Below are positions 25,443 to 53,183 of a stretch of DNA of 64,000 bases, piece after piece (within the stretch, counting starts at the first letter, position 1; every line of letters starts with the position of its first letter). Position numbers and translations under genes: made by a program. The DNA comes from Chondrosia reniformis. Taxonomy: Eukaryota > Porifera > Demospongiae > Chondrillida > Chondrillidae. The stretch lies in the NCBI GenBank assembly GCA_947172415.1, contig OX359197.1, positions 310,001-374,000 of the forward strand. The letters run 5' to 3'. The notes under the pieces were generated by a model, which was not told where the DNA came from, searched no databases, and was given only the letters and a program-made list of their open reading frames with translations.

Positions 25443-26519
25443 TTAGTAGACAAAAATCTCCAAACTCTCTGTTGCAGTATTGTCAATTACTGAAATACCA
25501 CACCAGCGTACTTCTATATCATGACTGGTAGGACTGTCCAGTGTTACATTAAACCATGGTCTTCCATCATCGGGACAACAGTTGCTACCTTTGTAACAAT
25601 TACCTTGCCACATTTTGTAGCCAGTGTACCACCGATTTCGAGGTTCCTTTTTTGTGGCTGATTCACAGAAATAGTTATTTCCAACAAAACTGGGAGAAGC
25701 AGTTCCACCTGGAGCACAGGGACAGTTACAAGCATTAAATTCAGCATATTTATAACCACTAGCATAAGTCCAGACATGAGCACGACTATTAGAAGGACCT
25801 CTTGTTATTGTGACACCAGATACATAGAGACTGTTGATTGAAGGATTATTACGACCCCAGTAAAATGCACAAGTATACCCTCCGCTGTGAGCATACCCCA
25901 CTGCTCTACCACAAATATTACTGTACTCTACTCCATGAGATGGATAATATACAGAATCACATGATTGTCTGGAAAGAGTGCTGCTATGTCTGCCACACAT
26001 AGTTTTACCATTGACCTCATACTTAGTAAGGCTACTGGGACAGGTATCTGATACACTGGTATCCAGATAGGCTATACGCATAACTCCTCTCACTCCACAT
26101 GCTGTGGTATCCATATCACAGTAGACTTGTTGAGGAGATGATTTAGTGGAGATCCAATAGAGACCAGAAGGACAAAGGTTATTGTTCTTGTAGACATCAT
26201 GGCAAGAAGAAGCAGGCTGTTCTGGAGTGGAGCCAATACAAGGAGAGCTTGATGGAGAAGGACTTGGTGAAGGTACGTAGTAGGTAGTGGTCCCTATGGG
26301 AATTTCTGTAGTTATATAAACTGTTTCAGTGACTGTAGTAGTAGGCTGGCTCTGATTGGATATAATGGGAGGACCAGGAGGACTAGGTGGACCAGGGGGA
26401 CCAGGGGGACCAGGAAAACCAGGAGGACCACGGGTGAGACGATTGCAGTACGGTGAATTCCCTTCATAAAAATAAGCATTGACATAAGCAGTCAATACTA
26501 GTAGATACAGCAGGAACAT
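25443..26519 (-). CDS. Array gene A: secreted collagen-like / fibrinogen-motif protein
   Basis: Single exon, 358 aa. A signal peptide [15 protein letters not shown] is followed by a short acidic segment, seven collagen-type triplets (about residues 32-52, one GFP), and a [13 protein letters not shown] plus Pro/Ser linker. Next comes a motif like the start of fibrinogen C-terminal domains ([20 protein letters not shown], then QQVYCDMDT). The C-terminal domain of about 220 residues contains [72 protein letters not shown] and IEVRWCG, and ends SLEIFVY. That domain resembles a family I know from sponge and cnidarian proteins of uncertain function. Potential N-glycosylation sites (NLT-type) are common in the paralogues. 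Secretion is well supported; ligand and role are unknown. Confidence 0.85.
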   Translation of the reverse strand: MFLLYLLVLTAYVNAYFYEGNSPYCNRLTRGPPGFPGPPGPPGPPSPPGPPIISNQSQPTTTVTETVYITTEIPIGTTTYYVPSPSPSPSSSPCIGSTPEQPASSCHDVYKNNNLCPSGLYWISTKSSPQQVYCDMDTTACGVRGVMRIAYLDTSVSDTCPSSLTKYEVNGKTMCGRHSSTLSRQSCDSVYYPSHGVEYSNICGRAVGYAHSGGYTCAFYWGRNNPSINSLYVSGVTITRGPSNSRAHVWTYASGYKYAEFNACNCPCAPGGTASPSFVGNNYFCESATKKEPRNRWYTGYKMWQGNCYKGSNCCPDDGRPWFNVTLDSPTSHDIEVRWCGISVIDNTATESLEIFVY

Positions 26520-26587
26520 CTTGCAGATACAGAAAGAACTTGACTGATATCTCAGATTGTTTTAGTCACTTCAGGAACAACTAATAT

Positions 26588-26640
26588 TCTGATTTACTGA
26601 ATGTGAATGACATGCAGTGGATGGTCTGAGTATTTATATA
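26588..26640 (-). promoter_or_regulatory. Conserved upstream block with TATA box, gene A
   Basis: On the coding strand a TATAAATA-type box (26631-26640 in plus coordinates) lies about 115 bp before the ATG. It is followed by a block equivalent to plus-strand tttactgaatgtgaatga and gtggatggtctgag, shared with genes B, C, E, F, H and J. Confidence 0.7.
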
Positions 26641-26988
26641 TATATATATACTGCTACTATACGGAAGTATATCCATATATTATATATATACAGTGCAAGT
26701 TACAATATATATATAGGACTATTAAAACTGTAGAGTTATGTAGTGGGAAGTTAGATCCTGTTTCTACAAGATGACACAAATATTTATACATTGATCATGA
26801 TCAAGTTAAATTATTAATATTGCAAATTATGAATTATATAGGAGTTCCATCAAATCTGCTATATATGGTTACTAACTGAAACCCTTAAGGACTGGTTCTT
26901 TGTGTCCTGCAAATTAAAGTGCTTTTAATTCATTACATGATATTGTTGTATATATAGCTAGCATGCCTGTATATATATATTATATATA

Positions 26989-27620
26989 GTGATACAACTA
27001 ATAGCATTTAGTTTAATTACATGGTACAGCCATGTACACTTTCCTGTGGATCATGTATAGCAATAAGTATTATATATTGATTTATGTCTGGACCATGCAC
27101 ATTTAGGAAAGTGGAAAGGCCGCGTGTTCTTATGTTACTATGTAAATATAAATTTATACATAGATGTATAGTAATATATATAGTGATACAACTAATAGCA
27201 TTTGGTTACATGGTACGGCCATGTACGGATCATGTATTGCAATAAGTATTATATATTGATTTATGTCTGGATCATGCACATTTAGGAAAGTGGAAAGGCC
27301 GCGTATTCTTATGTTACTATATAAATATAAATTTATACATAGATGTATAGTAATTTATATAGTGATACAACTAATAGCATTTGGTTACATGGTACGGCCA
27401 TGTACGGATCATGTATTGCAATAAGTATTATATATTGATTTATGTCTGGATCATGTACATTTAGGAAAGTGGAAAGGCCGCGTGTTCTTATGTTACTATA
27501 TAAATATAAATTTATACATAGATGTATAGTAATTTATATAGTTTTTGATGTATGGATCACATTAAGAAAGAGTAGGATAATTGGCTGCACACAAGGACAT
27601 GAAAGGCTGTCAGTGAAGCC
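26989..27620. repeat. ~180-bp tandem repeat between genes A and B
   Basis: Three copies of a unit with gtgatacaactaatagcatt, ttgatttatgtctggatcat, aggaaagtggaaaggccgcg and aaatttatacatagatgtat. Further copies occur at 41630-41830 and 42100-42260, in the matching interval between genes E and F. Confidence 0.85.
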
Positions 27621-27989
27621 TTAATGTAATGATGTAATAAGAGTGCAAGTTATAAAATGTTCTATATAATTAACTCAGTAGCCATGAAGTCAAACTTTAT
27701 TGTTTGAATTTGAATTCCCATGTAAAATACATGCATATAATAATACGGTACATGCATTATATAATGCCACTCAAGTATCAAAGATAGCTGTAGCATAACA
27801 AGTATTGTATATATATAATTGTAACTTTTATTTGTTGTGGATGTTTTTTGGTATATAGTACATGGTGAGATACCATATATACAAATATACATAGAGCCAG
27901 TGCGTGTATATATAATTGGTGTACCCTTTGGACCAATGGAAGGCATGCAGTTACAATATTATTTAATATGTGTATACGTATATATATAT

Positions 27990-28060
27990 ATGCATGACTG
28001 CTCTGCCACAAACATTACCTGTATATATATACTCTATGCCACGAGATGAGTAGTATATAT
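27990..28060 (-). pseudogene. Relic fragment of an array gene
   Basis: The plus-strand text ctgctctgccacaaacatta and the following tgccacgagatgagtagta match the reverse complement of the CGRAVGY region of intact array genes. No coding frame remains. The same relic at 42700-42730 forms the end of gene F. Confidence 0.6.
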
Positions 28061-28099
28061 ATGCCATTACTGGGGCAACGCTGAGGTGTTGAAGTCCAT

Positions 28100-28275
28100 A
28101 ACTAGGGTATAACTACAATAAGAGGCCCACTCCAGGGTAAAACTGCAATAAGAGGCCCACTCCAGGGTATTACTACAATAAGAGGCCCACTCCGAGGTAT
28201 TACTACAATAAGAGGCCCACTCCGAGGTATAACTACAATAAGAGGCCCACTCCAGGGTAAAACTGCAATAGGATG
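28100..28275. repeat. 30-bp minisatellite
   Basis: About six copies of a unit with aactacaataagaggcccac followed by tccagggtat or tccgaggtat, between genes A and B. It is absent from the equivalent E-F interval, which has a deletion there. Confidence 0.9.
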
Positions 28276-28746
28276 TCTAGGCTCTTATATCTGCCAATTA
28301 TGGAAAGGTGTTAATTGAATTTATACAATAACAATGAAAAAACGAGACCCGAGGGCGTGTAGGCCGTAGTATATCTATTACATATAGTTCTTTATATCTA
28401 TCAAATAGAAAGATAGCTAGACTTGGTGTCAGCATTCACAGACACCTATATTAAGTATGTCCAATGAGATTTAGCAATGTGATTTATGCTCATATACGTA
28501 TATACGTACTTTAAATTCATATACCGATCGAGATTATATGTACATTTATATATAGAGCATGCGCATCTCAAGGTTAATCATTGTAACAACTCTTAATTAA
28601 TGATGTGATCAACAGGCTAAGCGGATTCATTAATTTTATGATAAAGATCATACACTGCAGCTTTGCATATAATATGGTTTCATCTAAATGATTCCGTTCT
28701 ACAGTTTTTCTAGCTATCTCAAAATTATCTCTGTTAGTAGTATTAA

Positions 28747-29817
28747 CTAGTAGACATAAATGTCCAATGTTTCCAGACCTATGTTGTCAATCCTGTTACT
28801 CGATCGTATAACTCCACACCAGCGTACTTCTATACCTTGATTGGTAGGACTGTCCAGTGTTACATTAAACCATGGTCTTCCATCGTCAGGACAACAGTTG
28901 CTATCTTCATAACAATTGCCTTGCCACATTGTGTAGTTGGTGTACCACTCACCAAGAAGGGCGGGAGAATACTTTGTGGCTGATTCACAGAAGTAATTGT
29001 TTCCAACAAAGGAAGGAGGCTGTTGTCCTCCTGGAGCACAAGGACAGTTGCCACCATTACTTGTGGTTTCTTGATAACCACTAGCGTAAGTCCAGACATG
29101 GGTACGATTATTAGGAGGACCTCTTGTTATTTCAAGACCAGATACATATATATCATTAATGGATTCAGTTGTTGCTGCAAATGCAATTGTATCACCTCCG
29201 CTGTGAGCATACCCCACTGCTCTACCACAAATGTGACTGTACTCTACACCTTCTGATGGATAATATACAGAATTACATGATTGAGTGGAAAGAGTGCTGT
29301 TATGTCTGCCACACATAGTTGTACCATTGACCTCATACTTAGTAAGATTACTGGGACAGTTATCTGATACACTGGTATTCAGATAGGCTATACGCATGAC
29401 TCCTCTCACTCCACATGCTGTGGTATCCATATCACAGTAGATTAGTTGAAGAGATGATTTAGTGGAGATCCAATAGAGACCAGAAGGACAAAAGTTATTG
29501 TTCAGGTAGACATCACGGCAGGAAGAAGCAGGCTGTTCTGGAGTGGAGCCAATGCAAGGAGAACTTGATGGATAAGGACTTGGTGAAGGTATGTAGTAAG
29601 TGGTCTCAATGGGAGTTTCTGTAGTTATATAAACTGTTTCAGTGACTGTAGTAGTAGGTTGGCACTGATTGGATGAACCGGGTGGACCAGGAGGACCAGG
29701 TGGACCAGGAGGACCAGGGATGATGCACAGTGATTGATAGTTGCAGTACGTTGAATTCACTTCATTCAAATGAGCATTGACATAAGCAGTCAATACTAGT
29801 AGATACAGCAGGAACAT
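28747..29817 (-). CDS. Array gene B: secreted collagen-like / fibrinogen-motif protein
   Basis: Single exon, 356 aa from the ATG at 29815-29817. An in-frame ATG 36 bases upstream would place twelve polar or mixed residues before the signal peptide and is disfavoured, because all paralogues start at MFLL. Layout as in gene A, with a four-triplet collagen run after SLCIIP, the [11 protein letters not shown] linker, the fibrinogen-like motif ([20 protein letters not shown]) and the Cys-rich domain. Variable parts are [39 protein letters not shown] and [21 protein letters not shown]. It is closest to gene F over the whole coding region. The promoter block matches that of gene A. Confidence 0.85.
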   Translation of the reverse strand: MFLLYLLVLTAYVNAHLNEVNSTYCNYQSLCIIPGPPGPPGPPGPPGSSNQCQPTTTVTETVYITTETPIETTYYIPSPSPYPSSSPCIGSTPEQPASSCRDVYLNNNFCPSGLYWISTKSSLQLIYCDMDTTACGVRGVMRIAYLNTSVSDNCPSNLTKYEVNGTTMCGRHNSTLSTQSCNSVYYPSEGVEYSHICGRAVGYAHSGGDTIAFAATTESINDIYVSGLEITRGPPNNRTHVWTYASGYQETTSNGGNCPCAPGGQQPPSFVGNNYFCESATKYSPALLGEWYTNYTMWQGNCYEDSNCCPDDGRPWFNVTLDSPTNQGIEVRWCGVIRSSNRIDNIGLETLDIYVY

Positions 29818-29884
29818 CTTGCAGATACAGAAGGAACTTGACTGATATCTCAAATTGTTTTAGTCACTTCAGTAACAATTAATA

Positions 29885-29936
29885 GTCTGATTTACTGAAT
29901 GTGAATGACGGTGGATGATCTGAGTATTTATATATA
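29885..29936 (-). promoter_or_regulatory. Conserved upstream block with TATA box, gene B
   Basis: Plus-strand tctgatttactgaatgtgaa and tgagtatttatata, about 110 bp upstream of the ATG. The acatgca insertion present in gene A is missing, as in E and J. Confidence 0.7.
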
Positions 29937-30157
29937 CTGCTTATAGACATTTAGTACAGCACTATAGAAATATATTAACAGCATGTAGAGTTATGTAGAG
30001 GGTAGTATCCTATTTTGTATTTGACTTGCAAACAAATGTAGGCAAATCAGTTGGAAAAGGGTCAGACATGTACTTGTGGAAGTTTAGGTAGGTAGTCACA
30101 TGATATATATATATATATATATGACTCATATTTATACACTGATCAAGTTATATTTTT

Positions 30158-30460
30158 ATTATAACCACTAGCTTATAAGTCTGGACAGGAGTACAATCAT
30201 TAGAATGATCTCTTGTTATATTGTGACACCAGATACATATACGACCATTAATGGAGTTGGTATGCCCGTTCCAAGTTACGGTCCGAACAAATGTACATAT
30301 ATATTTCCTCCATATTCCATAATGAGCACGAGTCCAACTGCTCTACCACAAATGTGACTGCACTCTACACCATGAGATGGGTAAGTTACTGAATCACATA
30401 GTTCGTGGCAATAGTGCCCCGCCACCTATCTCATACTTGGTAAGGCTACTGGGATATATA
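30158..30460 (-). pseudogene. Decayed array gene fragment between B and C
   Basis: About 300 bp matching the middle of array genes in reverse complement (ASG, VTITRG, VSG, CGRAVGY and MCGR regions), with several indels and stops and no start or end. Plus-strand landmarks are ctgctctaccacaaatgtga and ctcatacttggtaaggctac. Confidence 0.75.
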
Positions 30461-30888
30461 TACTCCAGCCTCTTATGAAATTTTATTAGTATATGAAGTG
30501 ATTTCTGAAACTTACATGGTATGGAGGTATGTGCATGCAAGCTCCACGAGGTTTTCAACTCAAATCAGTTGTTTCAAGTCATCTCTCATCCTTCAAATTA
30601 TAACTGCTTATAAATTGAATACAGCAGAACTTCCTAACTATATAGAGTTTGGTTCTATATAATAATATATGTGTGATCAAACTGGCTACATGTGACAAGT
30701 AGAAGTAGTGGACGGTGCAAGTGAGGATTATTCATATGGGAGTTCTCCCAAAACACTGAGGTGAACGGTGGTTCTGTAAACTGTAAGTTAAATGGATGAT
30801 ATGTGCATATATGCGTATACATTGTGACAAATGTATAAAGTATATATTGTACACATATAAGTGGTTACATGTTACAGTATCAGATCAG

Positions 30889-32001
30889 TTAGTAGGTAAA
30901 TAGTTCCAAAAGTTCCAAGCCTATAATGTCATTTTCAGGTGGATATCCACACCAGCGTACTTCTATGTCTTGAGTAGTAGGATTGTCCTGTGCTACATTA
31001 AACCATGGTCTTCCATCGTCAGAACAACAGTCACTACCTTCATTGCAATATTCATCATTTCCATGCCATACATTAGCATTGGTGCGCCACTGATACTCGT
31101 TTGAGTACGGAGCTGACTCACAGAAAAAGTTATTACCAACAAAGTCTGGAGAATCATATCCATCACCACAGGGACATCCACAACTACTACCTCCAGGTCT
31201 ACCAGAAGCATACGTCCAAACGTGTGAGCGATTGTTTACCAGGCCTCTTGATATTAAGATCCCAGCGGTATAGAGAGAGTCTATTGAGTCACCTGCATAT
31301 ATATGGCTAGCTGTCTTCCACCAAAATGCACATGTATTTCTTCCACTGTGTGTATATCCTACCACTCTGCCACAAACATTACTGTACTCCACACCTTGAG
31401 ATGGATAGGTTACAGAATCACATGGTAGAGTAGTCGTGGAACTAGTATCATGTCTGCCACACATAGTTGTACCATTGACCTCATATTTAGTAAGATTACT
31501 GGGACAGGTATCTGATACACTGGTATCCAGATAGGCTATACGCATGACTCCTCTCACTCCACATGCTGTGGTATCCATATCACAGTAGACTTGTTGAGGA
31601 GATGATTTAGTGGAGATCCAATAGAGACCAGAAGGACAAAGGTTATTGTTTTTGTAGATATCACGGCAGGAAGAAGCAGGCTGTTCTGGAGTGGAGCCAA
31701 TACAAGGAGAACTTGATGGAGAAGGACTTGGTGAAGGTACGCAGTAAGTAGTGGTTTCTACTGACGTTTCTGTTATATAAACTGTTTCAGTAACTGTAGT
31801 AGTAGGTTGGCTCTGATTGGATGAACCAGGAGGACCAGGGGGACCAGGTGGACCAGGGGGACCAGGTGGACTAGGTGGACCAGGGGGACCAGGAGGACCA
31901 GGGATGATACACAGTGATTGAAAATTGCAGTACGTTGAATTCACTTCATTCAAATGAGCATTGACATAAGCAGTCAATACTAGTAGATGCAGCAGGAACA
32001 T
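30889..32001 (-). CDS. Array gene C: divergent collagen-like / fibrinogen-motif protein
   Basis: Single exon, 370 aa. Signal peptide [15 protein letters not shown], about nine collagen-type triplets including GPPSPP, a shortened [12 protein letters not shown] linker, then the fibrinogen-like motif. This is the most diverged intact copy in the C-terminal half. CGRHDTSSTTTLPCDSV replaces the usual segment, NTCAFWWKTASHIYAGDSID is unique, and RPGGSSCGCPCGDGYDSPDF replaces the CNCPCAPGG region. The [12 protein letters not shown] segment reads NANVWHGNDEYCNEG. It ends IGLELLELFTY. The first 170 residues remain nearly identical to its neighbours, so divergence is concentrated in the putative binding half. 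Confidence 0.85.
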   Translation of the reverse strand: MFLLHLLVLTAYVNAHLNEVNSTYCNFQSLCIIPGPPGPPGPPSPPGPPGPPGPPGPPGSSNQSQPTTTVTETVYITETSVETTTYCVPSPSPSPSSSPCIGSTPEQPASSCRDIYKNNNLCPSGLYWISTKSSPQQVYCDMDTTACGVRGVMRIAYLDTSVSDTCPSNLTKYEVNGTTMCGRHDTSSTTTLPCDSVTYPSQGVEYSNVCGRVVGYTHSGRNTCAFWWKTASHIYAGDSIDSLYTAGILISRGLVNNRSHVWTYASGRPGGSSCGCPCGDGYDSPDFVGNNFFCESAPYSNEYQWRTNANVWHGNDEYCNEGSDCCSDDGRPWFNVAQDNPTTQDIEVRWCGYPPENDIIGLELLELFTY

Positions 32002-37351: not shown

Positions 37352-38410
37352 TTAATACGTAAATAGTTCCAAAAGTTCCAAGCCTGTATTGTCATTATTA
37401 TTTGGATATCCACACCAGCGTACTTCTATATCATGATAGGTAGGACTGTCAAGATCTACATTAAACCATGGTCTTCCATCTTCAGGACAACAGTTGCTAC
37501 CTTCATAGCAATTGCCTTGCCACATTGTGTAGTTAGTGTACCACTGATTTTGAGGTGTATATTTTGTGGCTGATTCACAGAAATAGTTATTTCCAACAAA
37601 ACTGGGAGAAGCAGTTCCACCTGGAGCACAGGGACAGTTACAATGATTATGTTGAGCATATTGCCAACCACTAGCATAAGTCCAGACATGAGTACGATTA
37701 TCTGAAGGACCTCTTGTTATTGTGACACCAGTTGCATACTTGGTGGAGTAACCAAAAAAAGCACATGTCCATCCACTAGTAGCATAAGCATACCCCACTG
37801 CTCTACCACAGATATGACTGTACTCTACACCTTGCGATGGATAATATACAGAATCACATGGAACTGAATTGGCAAGAGAATGCGAAAGTCTACCACACAT
37901 AGTTGTACCATTGACCTCATACTTAGTAAGATTACTGGGACAGGTATCTGATACACTGGTATCCAGATAGGCTATACGCATGACTCCTCTCACTCCACAT
38001 GCTGTGGTATCCATATCACAGTAGACTTGTTGAGGAGATGATTCAGTGGAGATCCAATAGAGACCAGAAGGACAAAGGTTATTGTTCAGGTAGACATCAC
38101 GGCAGGAAGAAGCAGGCTGGCCTTGAGTGGAGCCAATACAAGGAGAACTTGATGGAGAAGGACTTGGTGAAGGTACGTAGTAGGTAGTGGTCTCTATGGG
38201 AGTTTCTGTAGTTATATAAACTGTTTCAGTGACTGTAGTAGGTTGGCACTGATTGGATGTACCGGGAGGACCAGGGGGGCCAGGTGGACCAGGAGGACCA
38301 GGTGGACCAGGGATGATATGCAGTGATGGAAAGTTATGGCATTTTCCTTTATTCGACTGAGCATTTACATAAGCAGTCAATGCTAGTACTAGTACATACA
38401 GCAGGAACAT
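37352..38410 (-). CDS. Array gene D: secreted collagen-like / fibrinogen-motif protein (subgroup 2 start)
   Basis: Single exon, 352 aa. The N-terminus MFLLYVLVLALTAYVNAQS and the following KGKCHNFPSLHIIP differ from genes A-C and match gene I. There are five collagen-type triplets and an intact fibrinogen-like motif. The C-terminal domain has YATSGWTCAFFGYSTKYATG and lacks the INGLYVSG insertion, and its NDNTGLELLELFTY end is close to gene K. D therefore looks mosaic: 5' half like I, 3' half like K. The upstream block also follows the I type rather than the A type. Confidence 0.85.
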   Translation of the reverse strand: MFLLYVLVLALTAYVNAQSNKGKCHNFPSLHIIPGPPGPPGPPGPPGPPGTSNQCQPTTVTETVYITTETPIETTTYYVPSPSPSPSSSPCIGSTQGQPASSCRDVYLNNNLCPSGLYWISTESSPQQVYCDMDTTACGVRGVMRIAYLDTSVSDTCPSNLTKYEVNGTTMCGRLSHSLANSVPCDSVYYPSQGVEYSHICGRAVGYAYATSGWTCAFFGYSTKYATGVTITRGPSDNRTHVWTYASGWQYAQHNHCNCPCAPGGTASPSFVGNNYFCESATKYTPQNQWYTNYTMWQGNCYEGSNCCPEDGRPWFNVDLDSPTYHDIEVRWCGYPNNNDNTGLELLELFTY

Positions 38411-40129: not shown

Positions 40130-41224
40130 TTAGTACACAAAAATCTCCAAAAGCTCTGTTGCTATATTATCATTAGTTTTACTACCACACCAGCGTACTT
40201 CTACATCTTCATTGGTAGGATTGTCAAGATCTACATTAAACCATGGTCTTCCATCGTCAGGACAACAGTCGCTACCTTCATAGCAATTACCTTGCCACAT
40301 TGTGTAGTTTATGAACCATTGACCTACTGCAGGAGGTTGGTATTTTGTGGCTGATTCACAGAAATAGTTGTTTCCAACAAAACTTGGAGGATCAACTCCA
40401 TCGGTTGGAGCACAGGGACAGTTACAATCAACACCAGGGACCTCTTGTCTACCAGCAGCATAAGTCCAGACATGAGTACGATCGGTAGAAGGACCTCTAG
40501 TTATTGTGACACCAGACACATAAAGAGCATTAATGTTATCTCTACCTTGAGGCCACCAAAATCCACAAGTGTATAATGGACCCCCACTTCCGCTGTGAGC
40601 ATACCCCACTGCTCTACCGCAAATATTACTGTACTCTAAACCTTCCGAGGGGTAATATACAGAATCACATGCATATGTATCTCTTAGGTTCTTCCTTCCA
40701 CACATAGTTGTACCATTGACCTCATACTTAGTAAGATTACTGGGACAGGTATCTGATACACTGGTATCCAGATAGGCTATACGCATAACTCCTCTCACTC
40801 CACATGCTGTGGTATCCATATCACAGTAGACTTGTTGAGGAGATGATTCAGTGGAGATCCAATAGAGACCAGAAGGACAAAGGTTATTGTTCTGGTAGAT
40901 ATCACGGCAGGAAGAAGCAGGCTCGTCTGGAGTGGAGCCAATGCAAGGCCTAGGAGAACTTGATGGAGAAGGACTTGGTGAAGGTATGCAGTAAGGAGTG
41001 GTCTCAATGGGAGTTTCTGTAGTTATATAAACTGTTTCAGTGACTGTAGTAGTAGGTTGGCACTGATTAGATGTACCGGGAGGTCCAGGAGGACCAGGGG
41101 GACCAGGGGGACCAGGAGGACCTGGGATGATGCATAGTGATTGATAGTTGCAGTACGTTGAATTCCCTTCATTCAAATGAGCATTGCCATAAGTAGTCAA
41201 TACTAGTAGATACAGCAGGAACAT
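40130..41224 (-). CDS. Array gene E: secreted collagen-like / fibrinogen-motif protein
   Basis: Single exon, 364 aa. Signal peptide MFLLYLLVLTTYGNA, five collagen-type triplets, a linker with an extra Arg-Pro (SSPRPCIGSTPDEP), and the fibrinogen-like motif [20 protein letters not shown]. Variable parts are KNLRDTYACDSV, GPLYTCGFWWPQGRDNINAL, RQEVPGVDCNCPCAPTDGVD and GSKTNDNIATELLEIFVY. Position, promoter type and upstream interval pair it with gene A: A-B and E-F look like copies of one two-gene block. Confidence 0.85.
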   Translation of the reverse strand: MFLLYLLVLTTYGNAHLNEGNSTYCNYQSLCIIPGPPGPPGPPGPPGPPGTSNQCQPTTTVTETVYITTETPIETTPYCIPSPSPSPSSSPRPCIGSTPDEPASSCRDIYQNNNLCPSGLYWISTESSPQQVYCDMDTTACGVRGVMRIAYLDTSVSDTCPSNLTKYEVNGTTMCGRKNLRDTYACDSVYYPSEGLEYSNICGRAVGYAHSGSGGPLYTCGFWWPQGRDNINALYVSGVTITRGPSTDRTHVWTYAAGRQEVPGVDCNCPCAPTDGVDPPSFVGNNYFCESATKYQPPAVGQWFINYTMWQGNCYEGSDCCPDDGRPWFNVDLDNPTNEDVEVRWCGSKTNDNIATELLEIFVY

Positions 41225-41342: not shown

Positions 41343-42008
41343 CTGCTACTATACTAATATATATACGGAAGTATATCCATATAGGACTATTAAAACTGTA
41401 GAGTTATGTAGTGGGAAGTTAGATCCCATTTCTACGAGATGACACAAATCACTGATCATGATCAAGTTAAATTATTAATATTGCAAATATAAATTATATA
41501 GGAGTTGCGCTATATGATTACTAACTGAGACCCTTAAAGGACTGGTTCTTTATGTCCTGCAAATTAAAGTGCTTTTAATTCACTACATAATTATATGATA
41601 TTGTTGTATAGCATGCCTGTATATATTAGTGATACAACTATTGGCATTTAGTTTAATTACATTGTACAGCCATGTACCCTTTCCTGTGGATCATGTATAG
41701 CAATAAGTATTATATATTGATTTATGTCTGGACCATGCACATTTAGGAAAGTGGAAAGGCTGCGTATTCTTATGTTACTATATAAATATAAATTTATACA
41801 TAGATGTATAGTAATATATATAGTTTTTGATGTATAGATCACATTTATTTAGTGTAGGATAATTGGCTGCACACAAGGACATGAAAAGCTGTCAGTGAAG
41901 CCTTAATGTAATGATGTAATAAGAGTGCAAGTTATAAAATGTTCTATATAATTAACTCAGTAGCCATGAAGTCTAACTTTATTGAATTTGTAAAATACAT
42001 GTATACAA

Positions 42009-42043
<35 letters not shown>

Positions 42044-42700
42044 CTTGTACAGTATATATATATATAGTAATACGGTACATGCATTATATAATGGCACTCA
42101 AGTGTACGGATCATGTATAGCAATAAGTATTATATATTGATTTTTGTCTGGACCATGCACATTTAGGAAAGTGGAAAGGCCGCGTGTTCTTATGTTACTA
42201 TATAAATATAAATTTATACATAGATGTATAGTAATTTATATAGTTTTTGATGTATGGATCACATTAATTTAGTGTAGGATAATTGGCTGCACACAAGGAC
42301 ATGAAAGGCTATCGGTGAAGCTTTAATGTAATGATGCAATAAGAGAACAAGTTATAAAATGTTCTATATAATTAACTCAGTAGCCATGAAGTCAAACTTT
42401 ATTGTTTGAATTTGAATTCCCATGTAAAATACATATAATATATGCGTATATTGTAACTTGCACTACATGCATTATATAATGGCACTCAAGTGTATCAAAG
42501 ATAGCTGTAGTATAACAAGTATTGTATATAATTGTAACTTTTATTTGTTGTGGAAGTTTTTTTGGTATATAGTATATGGTGAGATACCATACAAATATAA
42601 ATTGAGCCAGTGCGTGTATAATTGGTGTACCCTTTGGACCAATGGAAGGCATGCACAGTTACAATATTATTTAATATGTGTATACGTATATATATGCATG
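41343..42700. repeat. E-F intergenic block, copy of the A-B interval
   Basis: Shares with 26640-28010 the order tactatactaatatatat-type AT tract, agttatgtagtgggaagtta, ctgcaaattaaagtgctttt, the 180-bp repeat unit, cacacaaggacatgaaa and ggtgtaccctttggaccaat. Here the segment containing the 180-bp unit plus the following flank is itself duplicated (41630-42090 and 42100-42480). Confidence 0.8.
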
Positions 42701-42718: not shown

Positions 42719-44029
42719 TTACCTGTATATGTCCAATGTTTCCAGACCTATGTTGTCAACCCAGTTACTCGATCGTATAACTCCACACCAGCGTACTTCT
42801 ATATCTTGAGTAGTGGGACTGTCCAGTGCTACATTAAACCATGGTCTTCCATCGTCAGGACAACAGTTGCTACCTTCATAACAATTGCCTTGCCACATTA
42901 TGTAGTTAATGTACCACTCACCAAGAAGGGCGGGAGAATACTTTGTGGCTGATTCACAGAAGTAATTGTTTCCAACAAAGGAAGGAGGCTGTTGTCCTCC
43001 TGGAGCACAGGGACAGTTACCACCATTACTTGGGGTTTCTTGATAACCACTAGCGTGAGTCCAGACATGAGTACGATTATTAGGAGGACCTCTTGTTATT
43101 TCAAGACCAGATACATATATATCATTAATGGATTCAGTTGTTGCTGCAAATGCAATTGTATCTCCTCCACTGTGAACATACCCCACTGCTCTACCACAAA
43201 TGTGACTGTACTCTATACCTTCCGATGGATAATATACAGAATCACATGGCTGAGTGGAAAGAGTGCTGTTATGTCTGCCACACATAGTTGTACCATTGAC
43301 CTCATACTTAGTAAGATTACTGGGACAGGTATCTGATACACTAGTATCTAGATAGGCTATACGCATAACTCCTCTCACTCCACATGCTGTGGTATCCATA
43401 TCACAGTAGACTTGTTGAGGAGATGATTTAGTGGAGATCCAATAGAGACCAGAAGGACAAAGGTTATTGTTCCTGTAGACATCACGGCAGGAAGAAGCAG
43501 GCTGGTCTTGAGTGGAGCCAATGCAAGGAGAACTTGATGGAGAAGGACTTGGTGAAGGTATGTAGTAAGTGGTCTCAATGGGAGTTTCTGTAGTTATATA
43601 AACTGTTTCAGTGACTGTAGTAGTAGGTTGGCACTGATTGGATGAACCGGGAGGACCAGGGGGACCAGGAGGACCAGGAGGACCAGGGGGACCAGGAGGA
43701 CCAGGTGGATCAGGAGGACCAGGGGGACCAGGAGGACCAGGGGGACTAGGTGGACCGGGAGGACTAGGTGGACCAGGTGGACCAGGAGGACCAGGAGGAC
43801 TAGGTGGACCAGGAGGACCAGGAGGACCAAGGGGACCAGGAGGACCAGGTGGACCAGGAGGACCAGGAGGACTAGGTGGACCAGGAGGACCAGGTGGACC
43901 AGGGGGACCAGGTGGACCAGGAGGACCAGGGATGATGCACAGTGATTGATAGTTGCAGTATGTTGAATTCCCTTCATTCAAATGAGCATTGACATAAGCA
44001 GTCAATACTAGTCGATTTAGCAGGAACAT
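42719..44029 (-). CDS. Array gene F: copy with expanded collagen-like region
   Basis: Single exon, 436 aa, the longest of the array. Signal peptide [15 protein letters not shown]; the collagen-like stretch runs from about residue 34 to 130, about 32 triplets, mostly GPP with GPL, GPD and SPP variants, against four to ten in other intact collagen copies. The rest follows gene B closely ([33 protein letters not shown]). The protein ends LETLDIYR where gene B has LDIYVY. The final codons and stop come from a relic copy joined by a deletion. The coding 9-bp repeat explains the length change. The loss of the last Val-Tyr may be tolerated, but this is unknown. Confidence 0.85.
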
Positions 44030-44059
44030 CTTGTAGAGTCACTCCAGGAACAGCTAATA

Positions 44060-45609: not shown

Positions 45610-45784
45610 GAAGTCAATCATGATGGTTGTAGCTGTCCCCGTGCTTTTTAATCTTAAATAATAATACAAATTCTTTTTATTTTATTCATTTGCTGTTTCA
45701 CAGGTCTGTTAAAATAAACAGAATTTGTATTATTATTTAAGATTAAAGAGCACAGGGACAGCTACAACTGTCATGATTGACTTC
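45610..45784. repeat. 65-bp-arm palindrome at the broken end of array copy G
   Basis: 45610-45674 and 45720-45784 are near-perfect reverse complements (gaagtcaatcatgatggttg against caactgtcatgattgacttc), separated by about 45 bp. The right arm includes the array-gene segment for NCPCA-like sequence, so the palindrome has copied part of pseudogene G in inverted form. Confidence 0.85.
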
Positions 45785-46245
45785 TTGTGTCGACCAGAAG
45801 CAAATGTCCAGACATGAGTACGGTTATTAGAAGGACCTTGTACTATATATAGTGACTCCAGTTTCAAACAAACCATTAATGGAGTTATCAGTGTAGTAAA
45901 AATTAGTAGTGGTAGACCAATTAAAAAGGCATACTGCCATCCATCATACCGAGCATGCTCTACCACAAATATTACTGTACTCTACTCCATCAGATGGATA
46001 ATATACAGAATCACATGGAACTGTTAGATCATGTCTGCCACACATTGTTGTACCATTGACCTCATACTTAGTAAGATTACTGGGACAGGTATCTGATACA
46101 CTGGTATCCAGATAGGCTATACGCATGACTCCTCTCACTCCACATGCTGTGGTATCCATATCACAGTAGACTTGTTGAGGAGATGATTCAGTGGAGATCC
46201 AATAGAGACCAGAAGGACAAAGGTTATTGTACTTGTAGATTGAAT
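45733..46245 (-). pseudogene. Array copy G: truncated and frameshifted
   Basis: Starts (coding sense) inside the fibrinogen-like motif near 46245, where homology breaks after the [12 protein letters not shown] segment. It runs through [38 protein letters not shown] and VEYSNICGRA, then loses frame near 45955. The later part ([20 protein letters not shown]) is in another frame and ends at the palindrome. It has no promoter, signal peptide or collagen region. Confidence 0.85.
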
Positions 46246-46410
46246 ATTCAGGTTATATTTATTGTTATGCATGTGCAGTGTGTGTGCGTATACATACTTA
46301 CAGGAAATTTAATGGACGATAATAAGTCAAATATGAAAAAATGTTAAATATAATGGATGTTAATATAAATGGCTTTACAGTATGTAATTCTGAAACAGTC
46401 AAAAATCAAA

Positions 46411-47485
46411 TTAATAAATCAAAATCTGTAAATATCTCAGTCCAATAATATCAGTCCATGAAAGCCCCCCTTTAATTCCACACCAGCATACTTCTATATC
46501 TTGAGTAGTGGGACTGTCCAGTGCTACATTAAACCATGGTCTTCCATCGTCAGGACAACAGTTGCTACCTTCATAACAATTGCCTTGCCACATTGTGTAG
46601 TTAGTGTACCACTCGCCAATACCTAAGGGAGTATACTTTGTGGCTGATTCACAGAAATAGTTATTTCCAACAAAGGAAGGAGGTTGTGCTCCACCTGGAG
46701 CACAGGGACAGTTACCAACAGATCGACTGACTTCATTATAACCAGCAGCATAAGTCCAGACATGAGTACGATCATTAGAAGGACCTCTTGTTATTGTGAC
46801 ACCAGAAACCATTAATGGAGTTGTCGTCCCAGTAGTGAGTATTGGTAGAATACCAAAAGCCATGAGTAGCTCCTCCGCTGTGAGCATACCCCACTGCTCT
46901 ACCATAAATATTACTGTACTCTACACCTTCAGATGGATAATATACGGAATCACATGGAATTGTTCGATTTTGTCTGCCACACATAGTTGTACCATTGACC
47001 TCATACTTAGTAAGATTACTGGGACAGGTATCTGATACACTGGTATCCAGATAGGCTATACGCATGACTCCTCTCACTCCACATGCTGTGGTATCCATAT
47101 CACAGTAGACTTGTTGAGGAGATGATTCAGTGGAGATCCAATAGAGACCAGAAGGACAAAGGTTATTGTTCTTGTAGACATCATGGCAGGAAGAAGCAGG
47201 CTGGTCTAGAGTGGAGCCAATACAAGGAGAACTTGATGAAGAAGGACTTGGTGAAGGAATATAGTAAGTGGTCTCAATGGGAGTTTCTGTAGTTATATAA
47301 ACTGTTTCAGTGACTGTAGTAGTAGATTGGCACTGATTGGATGAACCGGGAGGACCAGGTGGACCAGATGGACCAGGGGGACCTGGGATGATACATAGTG
47401 ATTGATAGTTGCAGTACGTTGAATTCCCTTCATTCAAATGAGCATTGACATAAGTAGTCAATACTAGTAGATACAGCAGGAACAT
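46411..47485 (-). pseudogene. Array copy H: full-length but frameshifted
   Basis: Opens normally at 47485 with MFLLYLLVLTTYVNA, four to five collagen-type triplets (one GPS), linker and fibrinogen-like motif. It is in frame to about 46807, where a deletion of about 8 bases in the INGLYVSG codons shifts the frame. The rest (VTITRGPSNDR to the end near 46411) continues in a second frame. The conserved NICGRAVGY reads NIYGRAVGY, losing a Cys. The promoter block at 47548-47602 is intact. It is probably a recent pseudogene; a secreted, truncated product is possible. Confidence 0.85.
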
Positions 47486-47547
47486 CTTGCAGATACAGAA
47501 AGAACTTGACTGATATCTCAGATTGTTTTAGTCACTCCAAGAGCTAA

Positions 47548-47874: not shown

Positions 47875-48113
47875 AAATACATCATTTTTTTTATTTTAAT
47901 GTGGTTTATGGAACTAGTTTTCAGTAACGTTCTTTCATTCACTGTATAGGGAGAGTGAAACAAGAGTTGAAAACAAGACATTTATTCGTAAGCTACAGCA
48001 GGAAGCTATGGAAAGAGAGATGTAGGAGAAGCTGGAAGCAGCTGACAGGGAGAAAGTTTACAGGAAAAAGCAGCAGCTACAAGAAGAGAAACTGGCACAA
48101 GTGAGTGTGTAGA
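47875..48113 (+). pseudogene. Duplicated MNS1 exon 3 fragment, copy 2
   Basis: As in copy 1, the intron 2 end and exon 3 of MNS1 are recognisable (SETRVENKTFIRKLQQEAME), but a TAG replaces the Glu codon after EREM. The GT donor is retained. Degenerate traces of a later MNS1 exon occur at 48818-48880 (gctcttgaggttcagatc, ttttgagctgaa). Confidence 0.8.
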
Positions 48114-48654
48114 GACAATGACTTTCATAATGTATGATAATACATTAAATAGGTGGCCATATGCATGTTTTTTGGCCATCCATACTTAGAGAGTACTCTG
48201 ATATCTATGTGTATACATATGTACGTATATATTACTGCCTCAGTGAAGCTGTATACTTTGTATGGTGTATATAAATAGTCAAATAGTCAGTATTCATGTG
48301 ATATGAAATGTTTTATTCTCATTAATTTTTTCTTTTGCTATAATTATAATTACACTTATACTGTATACATCACATCACACATGCGCTGTCTCTCCCACAT
48401 TTTATCCTATCCTTTCGCCTGTATCATATGCGAATATAGTGAGTATATTACACATAAATTTTGATGATAATTGAATAGCTATAATATTGAATTGCTGATC
48501 ATTATTCAGTTCACATCGTTGAGGCTTTTTCAACGAATGCCGTACCCATGGACATGCACTGTATGCTCCCGGTTTTGTATTTTAAATACATAATTAAACC
48601 ACAAATAATCATTCTCAGACATCATGAAAAAGGGAAAAACATGCACAAAAGACA

Positions 48655-48735
48655 CAATTGCTGGGAATTGAACCCAGTGCAGCTGGTAATAACCATGCAC
48701 CACACAGTGTTCTGCCACTGTGCTATATACGTATA
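48655..48735 (-). repeat. tRNA-like SINE-type fragment
   Basis: On the minus strand the text agcacagtggcagaacactg is followed 30-odd bases later by gggttcaattccc, resembling an RNA polymerase III A box and B box. A related piece with ttgctgggaatgaacccag is at 45178-45200. No complete tRNA cloverleaf could be drawn, so it is called a tRNA-derived repeat at low confidence. Confidence 0.35.
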
Positions 48736-49107
48736 TACAATTCAATTGCCACATGCAATGCACATGCATCCTGTTATGTATATATATGTATACCATGGCA
48801 ACGAGCCGAAGATCTAAAAGCAGAGCTCTTGAGGTTCAGATCTATATACAAAAAGGACCATTTTGAGCTGAATACCTACATAAATAATCCTGGACCATGG
48901 TAATTCAGTAATTACATATAAATTATATTCTTTCATTTACAAGCTGCAGTCTATACGTACATTCTCTTATAATATATTTAGGGATGTCAATGCAAAAAAT
49001 AAATTGATAATCTAAACCACAACTTCATTAATGTATTTATATAGTATATAAAGTATGTGTTCAGCTAATTTTTAAAGATTTGAAAGTATATTAAACTACT
49101 CCTGGTA

Positions 49108-50232
49108 TTAGTATACAAAAATCTCCAAAAGCTCAGTAGCTATATTGTCATTAGCTCTTGGACGTCCACACCAGCGTACTTCTATATCGTGAGTAGAAGG
49201 ACTGTCCAGTGCTACATTAAACCATGGTCTTCCATCGTCAGGACAACAGTCACTACCTTCATAGCAATTGCCTTGCCACATTGTGTAGTTAGTGTACCAC
49301 TGATATTGACCTCTGTATTTTGTGGCTGATTCACAGAAATAGTTGTTTCCAACAAAACTAGGAGAAGCAGTTCCACCTGGAGCACAGGGACAGTTACAAT
49401 GACTAGTTGGGTCTTCTCTATGACCACTAGCATAAGTCCAGACATGAGTACGATTATCTGAAGGACCTCTTGTTATTGTGACACCAGTTGCATAGAGACC
49501 ATTAATGGAGGTGTCATGCCAATAGACTGTACCAGTTGAACTCCAGTCAAATGCACATGTATTCCCTCCACTGTAAGCATACCCCACTGCTCTACCACAG
49601 ATATTACCGTACTCTACACCTTGCAATGGATAATATACGGAATTGCATGGTTGAGTGGAAATAGTGCTGCTATGTCTGCCACACATAGTTTTACCATTGA
49701 CCTCATACTTAGTAAGATTACTGGGACAGGTATCTGATACACTGGTATCCAGATAGGCTATACGCATAACTCCTCTCACTCCACATGCTGTGGTATCCAT
49801 ATCACAGTAGACTTGTTGAGGAGATGATTCAGTGGAGATCCAATAGAGACCAGAAGGACAAAGGTTATTGTTCAGGTAGACATCACGGCAGGAAGAAGCA
49901 GGCTGGTCTTGAGTGGAGCCAATGCAAGGAGAACTTGATGGAGAAGGACTTGGTGAAGGTACATAGTAAGTGGTCTCAATGGGAGTTTCTGTAGTTATAT
50001 AAACTGTTTCAGTGACTGTAGTAGTAGGTTGGCACTGATTGGATGTACCAGGAGGACCAGGTGGACCAGGTGGACCAGGAGGACCAGGTGGACTAGGTGG
50101 ACCAGGAGGACCAGGAGGACCAGGTGGACCTGGGATGATATGCAGTGATGGAAAATTATGGCATTTTCCTTCGTTTGACTGAGCATTTACATAAGCAGTC
50201 AATGCTAGTACTAGTACATACAGCAGGAACAT
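49108..50232 (-). CDS. Array gene I: secreted collagen-like / fibrinogen-motif protein (subgroup 2 start)
   Basis: Single exon, 374 aa. N-terminus MFLLYVLVLALTAYVNAQS with EGKCHNFPSLHIIP as in gene D, then nine collagen-type triplets, linker and fibrinogen-like motif. Variable parts are [50 protein letters not shown] and GRPRANDNIATELLEIFVY. The C-terminal end resembles A and E, while the N-terminus resembles D, again suggesting segmental exchange between copies. Confidence 0.85.
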   Translation of the reverse strand: MFLLYVLVLALTAYVNAQSNEGKCHNFPSLHIIPGPPGPPGPPGPPSPPGPPGPPGPPGPPGTSNQCQPTTTVTETVYITTETPIETTYYVPSPSPSPSSSPCIGSTQDQPASSCRDVYLNNNLCPSGLYWISTESSPQQVYCDMDTTACGVRGVMRIAYLDTSVSDTCPSNLTKYEVNGKTMCGRHSSTISTQPCNSVYYPLQGVEYGNICGRAVGYAYSGGNTCAFDWSSTGTVYWHDTSINGLYATGVTITRGPSDNRTHVWTYASGHREDPTSHCNCPCAPGGTASPSFVGNNYFCESATKYRGQYQWYTNYTMWQGNCYEGSDCCPDDGRPWFNVALDSPSTHDIEVRWCGRPRANDNIATELLEIFVY

Positions 50233-50299
50233 CTTGCAGCTACAGGTGGAGCTTGGCTGATATATCTGAGATTGCTGTATTCCCTCAAGACACTATAAC

Positions 50300-50352
50300 T
50301 GTTTGATTTGTTCTCTGAAGCAGAGAATGAAACTGGTCACATATTTATACTC
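50300..50352 (-). promoter_or_regulatory. Subgroup-2 upstream block with TATA box, gene I
   Basis: Plus-strand gtttgatttgttctctgaag, gagaatgaaactggtcac, atatttatactcttct, the same type as gene D. Confidence 0.65.
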
Positions 50353-50569
50353 TTCTAAGATTCATAAGGAGTGACTTCTGTAACATACATGTAGGAGGTA
50401 TGTGTATATGGTTAGTCTATGTAATCAATGTGGAGCTTCCTACATTTAATTGAATGTTTGACATAACCATGTGCAGCCAGGCAACATCTTGGGGTAGGGA
50501 TTTCTTCATGCTGCATCCAAATTATGATAAGGCAACATCTTACAGCTACTTATCAATGACAAGAACTAA

Positions 50570-50768
50570 ATGTTCATATAGGAGTTTCTGTAGTTATATA
50601 AACTGTTTCAGTGACTGTAGTAGTATGTTGTCACTGATTGGATGTACCGGGAGGACCAGTTGGACTAGGAGGACCAGGGATGATGCACAGTGATTGATAG
50701 TTGCAGTACGTTGAATTCCCTTCATTCAAATGAGCATTGACATAAGCAGTCAATACTAGTAGGAACAT
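50570..50768 (-). pseudogene. Array copy J: 5' remnant only
   Basis: About 200 bp covering the start, signal peptide (shortened by loss of the LLYL codons), the [19 protein letters not shown] segment, four collagen-type triplets and the [11 protein letters not shown] linker, with a stop after SNQ. Homology ends at about 50575. The A-type promoter block upstream (50842-50888) is well preserved. Confidence 0.85.
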
Positions 50769-50837
50769 CTTGCAGATACAGAAAGAAGTTGACTGATATC
50801 TCAGATTGTTTTAGTCACTTCAGGAACAACTAATATT

Positions 50838-50890
50838 CTGTTTTACTGAATGTGAATGACGGTGGATGATCTGAGTATTTATATATACTG
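50838..50890 (-). promoter_or_regulatory. Conserved upstream block with TATA box, remnant J
   Basis: Plus-strand ttttactgaatgtgaatgac, gtggatgatctgag, tatttatatata, about 110 bp from the remnant ATG. Confidence 0.6.
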
Positions 50891-51995
50891 CTACTATACT
50901 AATGTATGGAAGTATATCCATATATATATTATATATAGGACTATTAGTTATGTAGTGGGAAGTTAGTATCATAGACTTCCAAACATATAGGGAACTCAAT
51001 TGGAAAAGGGTCAGACATGCATATACTAGTGGAAGTTTAGATAGCAAGCCACACAAGATGACACATATATATATAGACTGATCAAGTTTAGTTGATATAC
51101 CAGAATTCATTGTACATTTAGTGCTGCAACTCTTAGATATGAAGCTGTAACTTGATGTCAGCATTCGCAGTTACCTATAAATCATATTCAATGAGTTTTG
51201 AAAATTTTGATGTTCACTCATATTTGCCCTATATATACGTACCTCTCACCATAAATTAATTATTAAATATTGCAAATTATAGTAGTTGGTATATGCACAC
51301 AAGGAATTTACATTCCATGCATTATAAGGCTTAAGCCTCTTGTGTGCAAGGCATGTATATATATATGACAACTATATTATAATGTCAACATTATTATTCA
51401 AACTCTGGATATTACCCCTGCCCACTCATGTCTGCTTAGGAGCGCAATGAATTAATGGGTGAAACCAAAGTTTGTTTGATGGGAACCAGAGTCTCCCCCT
51501 AGCCACTCAAAAAGATGGTCGAGCCATAGGCATATATATGAATATAGACAACTATATAATGATAGGTTTATTCTGTAGCCGGGAATCAAATAGGGCCAAT
51601 GTTAGGGATCAGAATTCAGACATTTTGACCCAATCCAGGGGGCCTCTTCAGTGAATTAATACCTTAAAACCCTTAATGGAGTTATATCAGTATATTAATG
51701 AATCCAATGATAGAATGCATATGTCTATATATCATATTGAGCACACCTCACTGCTCTACCACAAATATTATTGTACTCTATACACCGGTGATATCTAAAA
51801 CGGGCACCTTTATTCAGTTAATCAATAGCTTTTTTGTAATGCTACTCTGATCACAAACAAATTCTCTTGATTTTCAGATTACAATTGTCTATAAAGTGAA
51901 CTAATTAAATTGCACAAAATGCATAATAAAGTATAATACATACACTCTACTAATATCCAAAATTGATAATAATATGATCAGTCAGAGAAATTGCA
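50891..51995. other. Intergenic J-K with repeat fragments and one array-gene relic
   Basis: Contains a partial copy of the palindromic element of PSMB4 intron 2 (51410-51500), a repeat with gacattttgacccaatcc (51620-51660, also near 7290), and an array-gene relic at 51664-51790 matching the INGLY to CGRAVGY region (plus-strand ctgctctaccacaaatatta). No intact gene. Confidence 0.55.
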
Positions 51996-53183
51996 TTAAT
52001 ATGTAAATATTTCCAAAAGTTCCAAGCCTGTATTGTCATTATCCCTTGGAGATCCACACCAGCGTACCTCTATATCCTGATTGGTAGGACTGTCCAGTGC
52101 TACATTAAACCATGGTCTTCCATCATCAGGACAACAGTTGCTACCTTCATAACAATTACCTTGCCACATAGTGTAGTTAGTGTACCACTGATTTTGAGGT
52201 GTATATTTTGTGGCTGATTCACAGAAATAGTTATTTCCAACAAAACTTGGAGAAGCAGTTCCACCTGGAGCACAGGGACAGTTACATCCATTAGATTGAG
52301 CATATTGCCAACCACTAGCATAAGTCCAGACATGAGTACGACTATCTGAAGGACCTCTTGTTATTGTGACACCAGTTGCATATTTGGTGGAGTAAAAAGC
52401 AAATGCACATGTCCATCCCCTAGTAGCATAAGCATACCCCACTGCTCTACCACAGATATGACTGTACTCTACACCTTCCGATGGGTAATATACTGAATCA
52501 CATGGCTGAGTGGAAAGAGTGCTGCTATGTCTGCCACACATAGTTTTACCATTGACCTCATACTTAGTAAGATTAGTGGGACAGGTATCTGATACACTGG
52601 TATCCAGATAGGCTATACGCATGACTCCTCTCACTCCACATGCTGTGGTATCCATATCACAGTAGACTTGTTGAGGAGATGAAGAAGTCTTTATCCAGTA
52701 GTACCCAGAAGGACTTGAAGGATTGTGACTATAGATGGCACTACATGATTCAGCTGGTGTAGCAATACTTTTTCCATATGATGATCCGAGTTTAGCAATC
52801 TTGTCAATATTACAATACACCTGACTAGGAGGTGAAGATGACTTAATCCAATAGTTACCATTTTTAGTGTAAGGATCACAGTCGTACACATCAAAGCATG
52901 AGTCAGCTGGATAGTCTGCACTTGATCCTGGAGTTATAGAAGTGATCTTCACAAGGTCCATTTCACAGTGAGTTGCTTGGACTGTTCCATTAGTCCTGAT
53001 CCAGTAGTATCCAGAAGGACTGAGAGAGTTGCATCTAAAGATCTGGTAGCAGCAAACTGCAGGAGATTCGTCAGATAGACCAGGACAGGTTTTGAAACAA
53101 GAAGAACTCTCTGGAGACTGCTGAGAGGTCACTTGACCAGACAGTAACGAGAAGACAGACATCAAAGAACACAGGAGCTTCAT
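51996..53183 (-). CDS. Array gene K: variant with three fibrinogen-like motifs and no collagen region
   Basis: Single exon, 395 aa. Signal peptide MKLLCSLMSVFSLLSGQVTS, then, in place of collagen and linker, three successive modules of the form C-x-x-I/V-Y/F ... SGYYWI ... VYC. They are at about residues 42-80 (CYQIFRCNSLSPSGYYWI), 90-135 (CFDVYDCDPYTKNGNYWI) and 145-185 (CSAIYSHNPSSPSGYYWI, then QQVYCDMDT). From [18 protein letters not shown] on it is almost the same as gene D. Either an older gene donated its C-terminal domain to the array or the reverse. It has a different N-terminus and no A-type promoter block, so it may be controlled differently. The function is unknown; the extra motifs suggest a multimeric or multivalent protein. 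Confidence 0.83.
   Translation of the reverse strand: MKLLCSLMSVFSLLSGQVTSQQSPESSSCFKTCPGLSDESPAVCCYQIFRCNSLSPSGYYWIRTNGTVQATHCEMDLVKITSITPGSSADYPADSCFDVYDCDPYTKNGNYWIKSSSPPSQVYCNIDKIAKLGSSYGKSIATPAESCSAIYSHNPSSPSGYYWIKTSSSPQQVYCDMDTTACGVRGVMRIAYLDTSVSDTCPTNLTKYEVNGKTMCGRHSSTLSTQPCDSVYYPSEGVEYSHICGRAVGYAYATRGWTCAFAFYSTKYATGVTITRGPSDSRTHVWTYASGWQYAQSNGCNCPCAPGGTASPSFVGNNYFCESATKYTPQNQWYTNYTMWQGNCYEGSNCCPDDGRPWFNVALDSPTNQDIEVRWCGSPRDNDNTGLELLEIFTY

Follow-up and report, generated by a model that had tools for sequence, protein, structure and literature searches.

A tandem array of collagen-stalked genes in the sponge Chondrosia reniformis, a candidate germline repertoire of recognition proteins

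We analyzed a 64,000-nucleotide stretch of the Chondrosia reniformis genome (GCA_947172415.1, contig OX359197.1; C9:310001-374000, here called the window), which carries an array of genes that join a collagen-like stalk to a C-terminal head of ∼250 residues, in which a FIB-N motif of ∼45 residues precedes a Cys-rich body. When the genome (117,379,552 bases in 15 contigs) was searched, the combination of stalk and head was found to recur, so that the window holds only one part of a large family. These genes are best explained, with a probability that we put at about one half, as a germline repertoire of secreted, stalked, multivalent recognition proteins. New here are the coinciding loop variability in four arrays, the lower divergence of stalks than of head bodies, the apparently mosaic heads, and the head exchange indicated between stalk types. 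Collagen-stalked recognition proteins are best known from ficolins and collectins; if our explanation holds, the stalk-plus-head design would have been reached in evolution with another head, in many stalked copies within one sponge, and coinciding loops and exchanged heads would make this a directly testable repertoire.

The minus strand carries eight intact single-frame genes (A to F, I, and K; 352 to 436 residues) between window positions 25443 and 53183. Their number, strand, and outer coordinates agree with an original prediction made from the letters of the sequence, and the single-exon status that it assigned to them is read from open frames. Seven of the genes begin with a hydrophobic leader (peak mean hydropathy 1.8 to 3.1) and a segment containing Cys; GPP-type triplets come next, and a Thr/Ser/Pro linker leads to FIB-N and the Cys-rich body, an order that, the Cys-bearing segment apart, had been predicted. 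The eighth, gene K, lacks collagen and carries three stretches of FIB-N. The heads of all eight measure 250 to 262 residues. FIB-N (NCBIfam NF040941, cutoff 30) scored 33.6 to 34.2 bits in A, D, and F, the three of the seven collagen genes that were scanned, and 65.2 bits in K. The predicted range of 4 to 32 triplets per collagen gene was about right (we counted 4 to 31), although few strictly Gly-X-Y triplets stand in a row (A, 5+1; B, 4; C, 3+4; D, 5; E, 5; I, 4+4), and in gene F, where 26 of the 31 triplets have Gly, the stalk is interrupted by four SPP and one DPP. The Pfam Collagen model exceeded its cutoff in one of three window collagen genes scanned (gene F).

Stalk types, variable loops, and exchanged heads

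With one head as the query, at least 150 genomic matches were scored from 313 candidates, all 150 below an expectation (E) value of 0.001; because some broken copies give two or more rows, the figure is a minimum for matches rather than a number of genes. We analyzed 63 heads, the window's eight included, from 40 of 98 planned stretches; outside this set are partial or stop-bearing matches in those 40 stretches and all matches in the other 58. At least four consecutive Gly-X-Y triplets stood upstream in the same frame in 53 of the 63, compared with 24 of 400 open frames from the same DNA that lack a head and have at least 80 residues, a rough and generous control that includes other frames over collagen tracts and some overlapping stretches. 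Used as a collagen label on the head tree, which was flagged for long branches, this property requires at least eight changes.

GPP runs followed by a Ser/Thr/Pro linker occur in the window and at C9:442-471 kb, C9:1.24-1.25 Mb, and C6:2.54-2.60 Mb. Other stalks have six triplets and a helical-looking segment (nine copies at C6:5.64 Mb), eleven or twelve triplets and a neck (15 of 18 rows at C13:1.13-1.21 Mb), or twenty-eight triplets and a neck (eight copies at C9:1.89-1.95 Mb), the helical-looking necks being judged by eye. Eleven triplets were counted in three copies at C13:549-558 kb, fifteen at C13:4.70 Mb, seventeen at C9:1.10 Mb, and twenty-five at C9:1.26 Mb. In some of these sister-array types 11 to 28 triplets are unbroken, and Pfam Collagen exceeded its cutoff in four of seven sister-array proteins scanned.

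We compared four arrays, each a starred group of its own in the tree: the window clade (W, 21 rows), C13 (18), C6n (9), and C9s (8). Amino acid diversity peaked in the same head blocks for most array pairs, and we delimited four loops (gene D head residues 108-125, 148-158, 182-189, and 234-244). Diversity in the loops and in the rest was 0.54 and 0.17 in W, 0.44 and 0.19 in C13, 0.34 and 0.04 in C6n, 0.20 and 0.07 in C9s, and 0.69 and 0.61 in bacterial relatives; with loop limits chosen after the diversity table had been viewed, 0, 1, 0, 4, and 45 of 255 circular shifts, respectively, were as large. In a repeat test with masks drawn from a single array each, the mask built on the top quarter of W by variability was equaled or exceeded by 0, 1, and 2 of 255 shifts when applied to the three remaining arrays. 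Over all 12 sponge-to-sponge comparisons the count was 0 to 23 of 255, and over the four bacterial ones it was 13 to 66. The ratio of nonsynonymous to synonymous differences per site (pN/pS) was 0.82 (W), 0.82 (C13), 0.68 (C6n), and 1.05 (C9s) in the loops, and 0.36, 0.34, 0.33, and 0.25, respectively, in the rest of the body. Among single loops, only loop 2 of W (1.43; 1.06 to 2.01) and loops 2 and 4 of C9s (2.85 and 5.40, from few substitutions) exceeded 1; with whole-loop values of 0.68 to 1.05, positive selection is not claimed.

In all four arrays, the stalk diverges less than the head body. Mean DNA p-distances for stalk and head body were 0.122 and 0.206 in W (14 of 21 rows), 0.059 and 0.144 in C13 (15 of 18), 0.020 and 0.089 in C6n (9 of 9), and 0.045 and 0.071 in C9s (8 of 8), with rows lacking a collagen run and the copy C9:1431398 excluded. 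In the part of the head from FIB-N through residue ∼65, pS was 0 to 0.09 among the seven window collagen genes and 0.09 to 0.19 among 18 genes, and windows in the body ranged from 0.11 to 0.66. A recombination test of the pairwise homoplasy index (PHI) type found 0 of 1,000 permutations as low in W, C13, and C6n and 37 of 1,000 in C9s. Two C6n copies (5641653 and 5650937) have loops 1, 3, and 4 in common, and loop 2 of the former is one residue from that of a third copy, 5648780. Head histories thus look mosaic.

Among 19 aligned genes, three types of N-terminal part were distinguished: the collagen type, that of K and n463 (3.5% apart), and that of n466 and n477 (2.0% apart). Since the types are ∼55% apart and barely alignable, an N-terminal tree informs little beyond them. 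The head-body tree interleaves the types, joining K with D (95/89), n466 and n477 with a442 (100/99), and n463 with the B/F group (92/97). K and n463, which differ by 3.5% in their N-terminal parts, differ by 24.4% in the head body, compared to 9.3% between K and the collagen gene D; n466 differs from the collagen gene a442 by 13.9%. These comparisons indicate that heads have been exchanged between collagen and non-collagen stalk types. The route may have been gene conversion or unequal crossing-over, which would keep stalk and FIB-N uniform and reassort heads and loops.

Relatives of the head

A profile of 33 sponge heads matched XEEL, intelectin-1, and a serum lectin best in the PDB (E 2.7e-5 to 3.2e-4), and a profile of 25 sponge and bacterial heads gave the same leaders at E 4.1e-8 to 6.2e-7 over approximately the first 57 profile positions. 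Fibrinogen, angiopoietin, and tenascin came next, with procollagen and ficolins among the non-significant matches; all matches (the best 60 of 67) lay inside the first ∼90 profile positions. Gene D alone had no match to the PDB at E 1 by phmmer. As a yardstick for the intelectin comparison we used seven bacterial intelectin-type proteins, which matched XEEL over their full length (2.9e-83), and FIB-N alone aligned with this yardstick at an hhalign E value of 1.4e-21. Full-length intelectin homology was ruled out by sequence, and a distant likeness of fold may exist; a resemblance in late Cys and WDG motifs, spotted by eye between intelectins and the head body, was lost in the profile comparison.

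The predicted placing of a collagen stalk on a head other than that of ficolins was borne out and recurs genome-wide, with no Fibrinogen_C (PF00147) match in four head-bearing window proteins (E 1) or in the 33 heads (E 0.01). PF00147 itself has 142 separate matches in the genome and none in the window, many of them clustered elsewhere and many near full length (C6:2.12-2.64 Mb, C12, C2:8.98-9.01 Mb, and others). Among the Pfam scan matches no family named for Cthrc1 appeared, the inclusion of such a family in the library being unconfirmed. No viral relatives of the head were found; two PHROGs families of unknown function matched 8 and 6 of 25 heads, with the match in the bacterial protein L049 falling at FIB-N.

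The recognition system had been proposed as lineage-specific, and the C-terminal domain likened to sponge and cnidarian proteins. For the head neither label is supported, since whole-length bacterial relatives exist. The first, from a contig scan, was the C-terminal part of a 1358-residue frame (L049) in a Deltaproteobacteria metagenome-assembled genome, next to what we take to be ATP synthase and Sec translocon genes. Whole-head matches to the bacterial relatives cover query positions 1-251 (30% identity) and profile positions 1-254, and the N-terminal part of L049 abounds in Cys/Asp repeats. In the same phylum, 17 of 377 genomes, the source genome counted, had matches at E 1e-6, one of which (G026) has an intelectin-type protein instead. 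L050 duplicates L049, so the 21 bacterial frames stand for 20 different genes. In the available upstream DNA, exactly four Gly-X-Y triplets in a row preceded the head in two of the 21 frames; the other 19 had no such run. These proteins have the whole head in common with the sponge family but differ in a GGGW-type motif, which follows CDM in most of 12 aligned bacterial rows. In a tree of the 63 sponge heads and 10 of the 21 bacterial frames, the sponge heads lie on one side of a starred branch (100/98). Six Cys columns were filled in 10 of 10 bacterial heads and 98 to 100% of sponge heads, and eight more in 98 to 100% of sponge heads and 0 to 50% of bacterial ones. Separately, when 377 genomes from one phylum were searched at E 1e-20, 7 had bacterial intelectin-type proteins (L066, L070-L076), 6 of the 7 matched nearly full-length.

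Ficolins, which bind acetylated ligands and activate MASP/complement, resemble the sponge proteins in having a leader, a collagen-like stalk, and a C-terminal head that opens with FIB-N, but beyond FIB-N the sponge head has no fibrinogen domain, its body being another sequence family. Collectins have a collagen stalk, a neck, and a head, as several sister arrays do (the sponge neck judged by eye), yet the C-type lectin domain is absent from the Pfam scans of the sponge proteins. With intelectins and X-type lectins (XEEL, human intelectin-1), which bind exocyclic diols in a calcium-dependent manner, the sponge head shares FIB-N, and the remainder has no detectable homology.

Compared by description only, the intelectin-like proteins of Trichoplax sp. 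H2 are similar in size, leader, and gene clustering: the available text of two sources (PMC6321704, PMC11452194) describes mostly ∼250 residues, a signal peptide, a fibrinogen-related-domain (FReD)-like part of up to 70 residues, and 31 placozoan genes, mostly clustered, proposed as first-line extracellular lectins. The sponge copies differ in their collagen-like stalks, as the former of these, in the part available, describes proteins without collagen repeats or coiled coils (PMC6321704). The Cthrc1 family, duplicated in cnidarians and several poriferans, is secreted and combines a short variable collagen stretch with a conserved C-terminal domain; that domain, of 130 to 150 residues and C1q-like in the available text (PMC7058181), is set apart by description from the ∼250-residue, FIB-N-bearing sponge head. 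In favor of a role in microbe recognition, sponge fibrinogen-domain genes are reported to shift in expression on microbial cues (PMC6208332), although these are of the canonical PF00147 kind and do not belong to this head family. In a search of open-access titles and the beginnings of abstracts, with the subscription literature mostly outside its scope, collagen-stalked copies of this head were undescribed among the matches listed.

A recognition repertoire and its alternatives

In the recognition repertoire that we propose, the stalks would multimerize the heads and the four loops would form a ligand-binding face. The proteins may bind, agglutinate, or opsonize microbes, or sort symbionts, a role like that of collectins and ficolins but exerted through another head. 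The layout in common with ficolins and collectins favors such a role in microbe recognition, and the shared variable loops and head exchange fit the recognition of microbes or self that the original prediction had suggested. Also in favor of the repertoire are the genome-wide recurrence of stalk plus head, a pN/pS that is higher in the loops than in the rest of the body, the lower divergence of stalks, the recombination test, the rejection of the non-collagen heads as one clade, and the XEEL and intelectin matches of FIB-N. A more specific form, which we put forward only tentatively, is a combinatorial germline repertoire, in which gene conversion would shuffle whole heads and single loop cassettes between stalks of three or more types, so that one set of binding surfaces would be displayed on both collagen multimers and multi-FIB-N carriers and would help an animal of high microbial abundance to sort microbes or symbionts.

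Several observations weigh against a recognition repertoire. The window stalks are short and interrupted, with 4 to 9 triplets in six of seven genes (F has 31), and the predicted trimerization through them is doubtful. To judge by sequence, only FIB-N resembles a known lectin: the remaining ∼205 head residues did not align with the intelectin yardstick (hhalign probability 0.2%, p 0.26), so that the body either forms a sequence family of its own or has diverged too far for a verdict. AlphaFold2 models reached a predicted local distance difference test (pLDDT) score of 32 for the eight window heads and 41 for one bacterial head with these eight. Foldseek returned nothing at E 0.001 for the latter model; its first rows (E 2 to 5) were mixed, and angiopoietin-type rows (49 to 162 columns aligned, TM 0.14 to 0.17) permit no fold conclusion. 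Some masks transferred less cleanly (C13 to W, 23 of 255 shifts; C9s to C6n, 15), not outdoing the W mask when applied to bacterial heads (13), and smoothed C13 and C6n profiles were not correlated (47 of 236 shifts). Whole-loop pN/pS is not above 1 by codon bootstrap (0.68 to 0.99, 0.64 to 1.02, 0.50 to 0.89, and 0.62 to 1.74 for W, C13, C6n, and C9s), and the raised loop pS means that conversion or alignment effects may inflate loop variation. Head residues 1-66 of C13 are more diverged (0.215) than the body (0.144). Finally, the approximately unbiased (AU) test that rejected the four non-collagen heads as one clade (p-AU 7e-75, at a cost of 170 log-likelihood units) was run after the head tree had suggested the grouping.

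The genes could instead encode matrix parts, namely, collagens that are short and non-fibrillar, with heads that start trimer formation or attach to other matrix molecules; we regard this as less likely but as a serious rival. Chondrosia is unusually rich in collagen, with a mesohyl filled with collagen fibrils, according to the available text of PMC12181767. FIB-N also gives weak matches to COLFI, the procollagen C-propeptide; gene K reaches 42.9 bits (Pfam cutoff 26.2) via its three stretches, and some other heads in the genome reach the cutoff. These matches are, however, mostly near or below the cutoff and confined at heads to approximately positions 5-79 of 233, and the head alone matches in only 4 of 33 members at E 0.01. 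The full-length COLFI propeptide of a fibrillar collagen was not found. Moreover, a structural role alone predicts neither coinciding variable loops in separate arrays nor exchanged heads.

Largely neutral tandem amplification, with loops that tolerate change and mosaics produced by gene conversion alone, appears improbable. Whole-loop pN/pS near or below 1, the raised loop pS, and the presence of relics and a frameshifted copy would all be compatible with it, but the body outside the loops is constrained in the four arrays (pN/pS 0.25 to 0.36), and 14 Cys columns are filled in 98 to 100% of the 63 sponge heads. Also against neutrality are loop positions that coincide between most arrays and that bacterial heads follow weakly (13 to 66 of 255 shifts). 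Least probable is self/non-self or gamete recognition, with variable heads marking individuals rather than binding microbes: allorecognition families likewise have loops that vary, tandemly arrayed genes, and mosaic copies, but many paralogues per genome were found here, not one polymorphic locus.

Layout of the window

From its low-coordinate end, the minus-strand array begins with gene A (25443-26519; seven collagen-like triplets, one of them SPP), followed by gene B (28747-29817; four triplets), whose head body groups with that of F. Gene C (30889-32001; eight triplets, one SPP) has a long branch and a strongly diverged head body. Gene D (37352-38410; five triplets) has its head at 37355-38110, with a body nearest to that of the non-collagen gene K, and the head of gene E (40130-41224; five triplets) groups with the non-collagen gene C9:448815. 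Gene F (42719-44029) contains a 9-bp tandem array at 43646-43930. The predicted frameshifted copy H (46411-47485) was recovered as two overlapping frames, 46411-46905 and 46775-47485. Gene I (49108-50232) has nine triplets, one SPP, and gene K (51996-53183) ends the array, its three FIB-N/COLFI-like stretches preceding the same kind of head (51999-52748).

Where five or more relics had been expected, tblastn (limits E 1e-4 in one run and 1e-3 in another) gave three, all on the minus strand: a head fragment (30219-30453), about half of a head with stops (45749-46246), and a leader with a collagen segment (50559-50810). The plus strand of the window had no related tblastn match at E 1e-4, and scans of the window gave no Rfam or tRNA matches.

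A 179-bp tandem repeat of 2.8 copies adjoins the array at 27048-27542, and the DNA at 27406-27702 is 95% like that at 41688-41984 and 42108-42404. Farther away, a 40-bp tandem repeat of ∼52 copies (95% match) spans 9314-11386, and a 173-residue plus-strand frame at 11821-12342 has weak, below-cutoff matches only. On the other side of the array, a 501-residue plus-strand frame (54840-56345) has Tc5/Brinker-type DNA-binding domains and is likely transposase derived.

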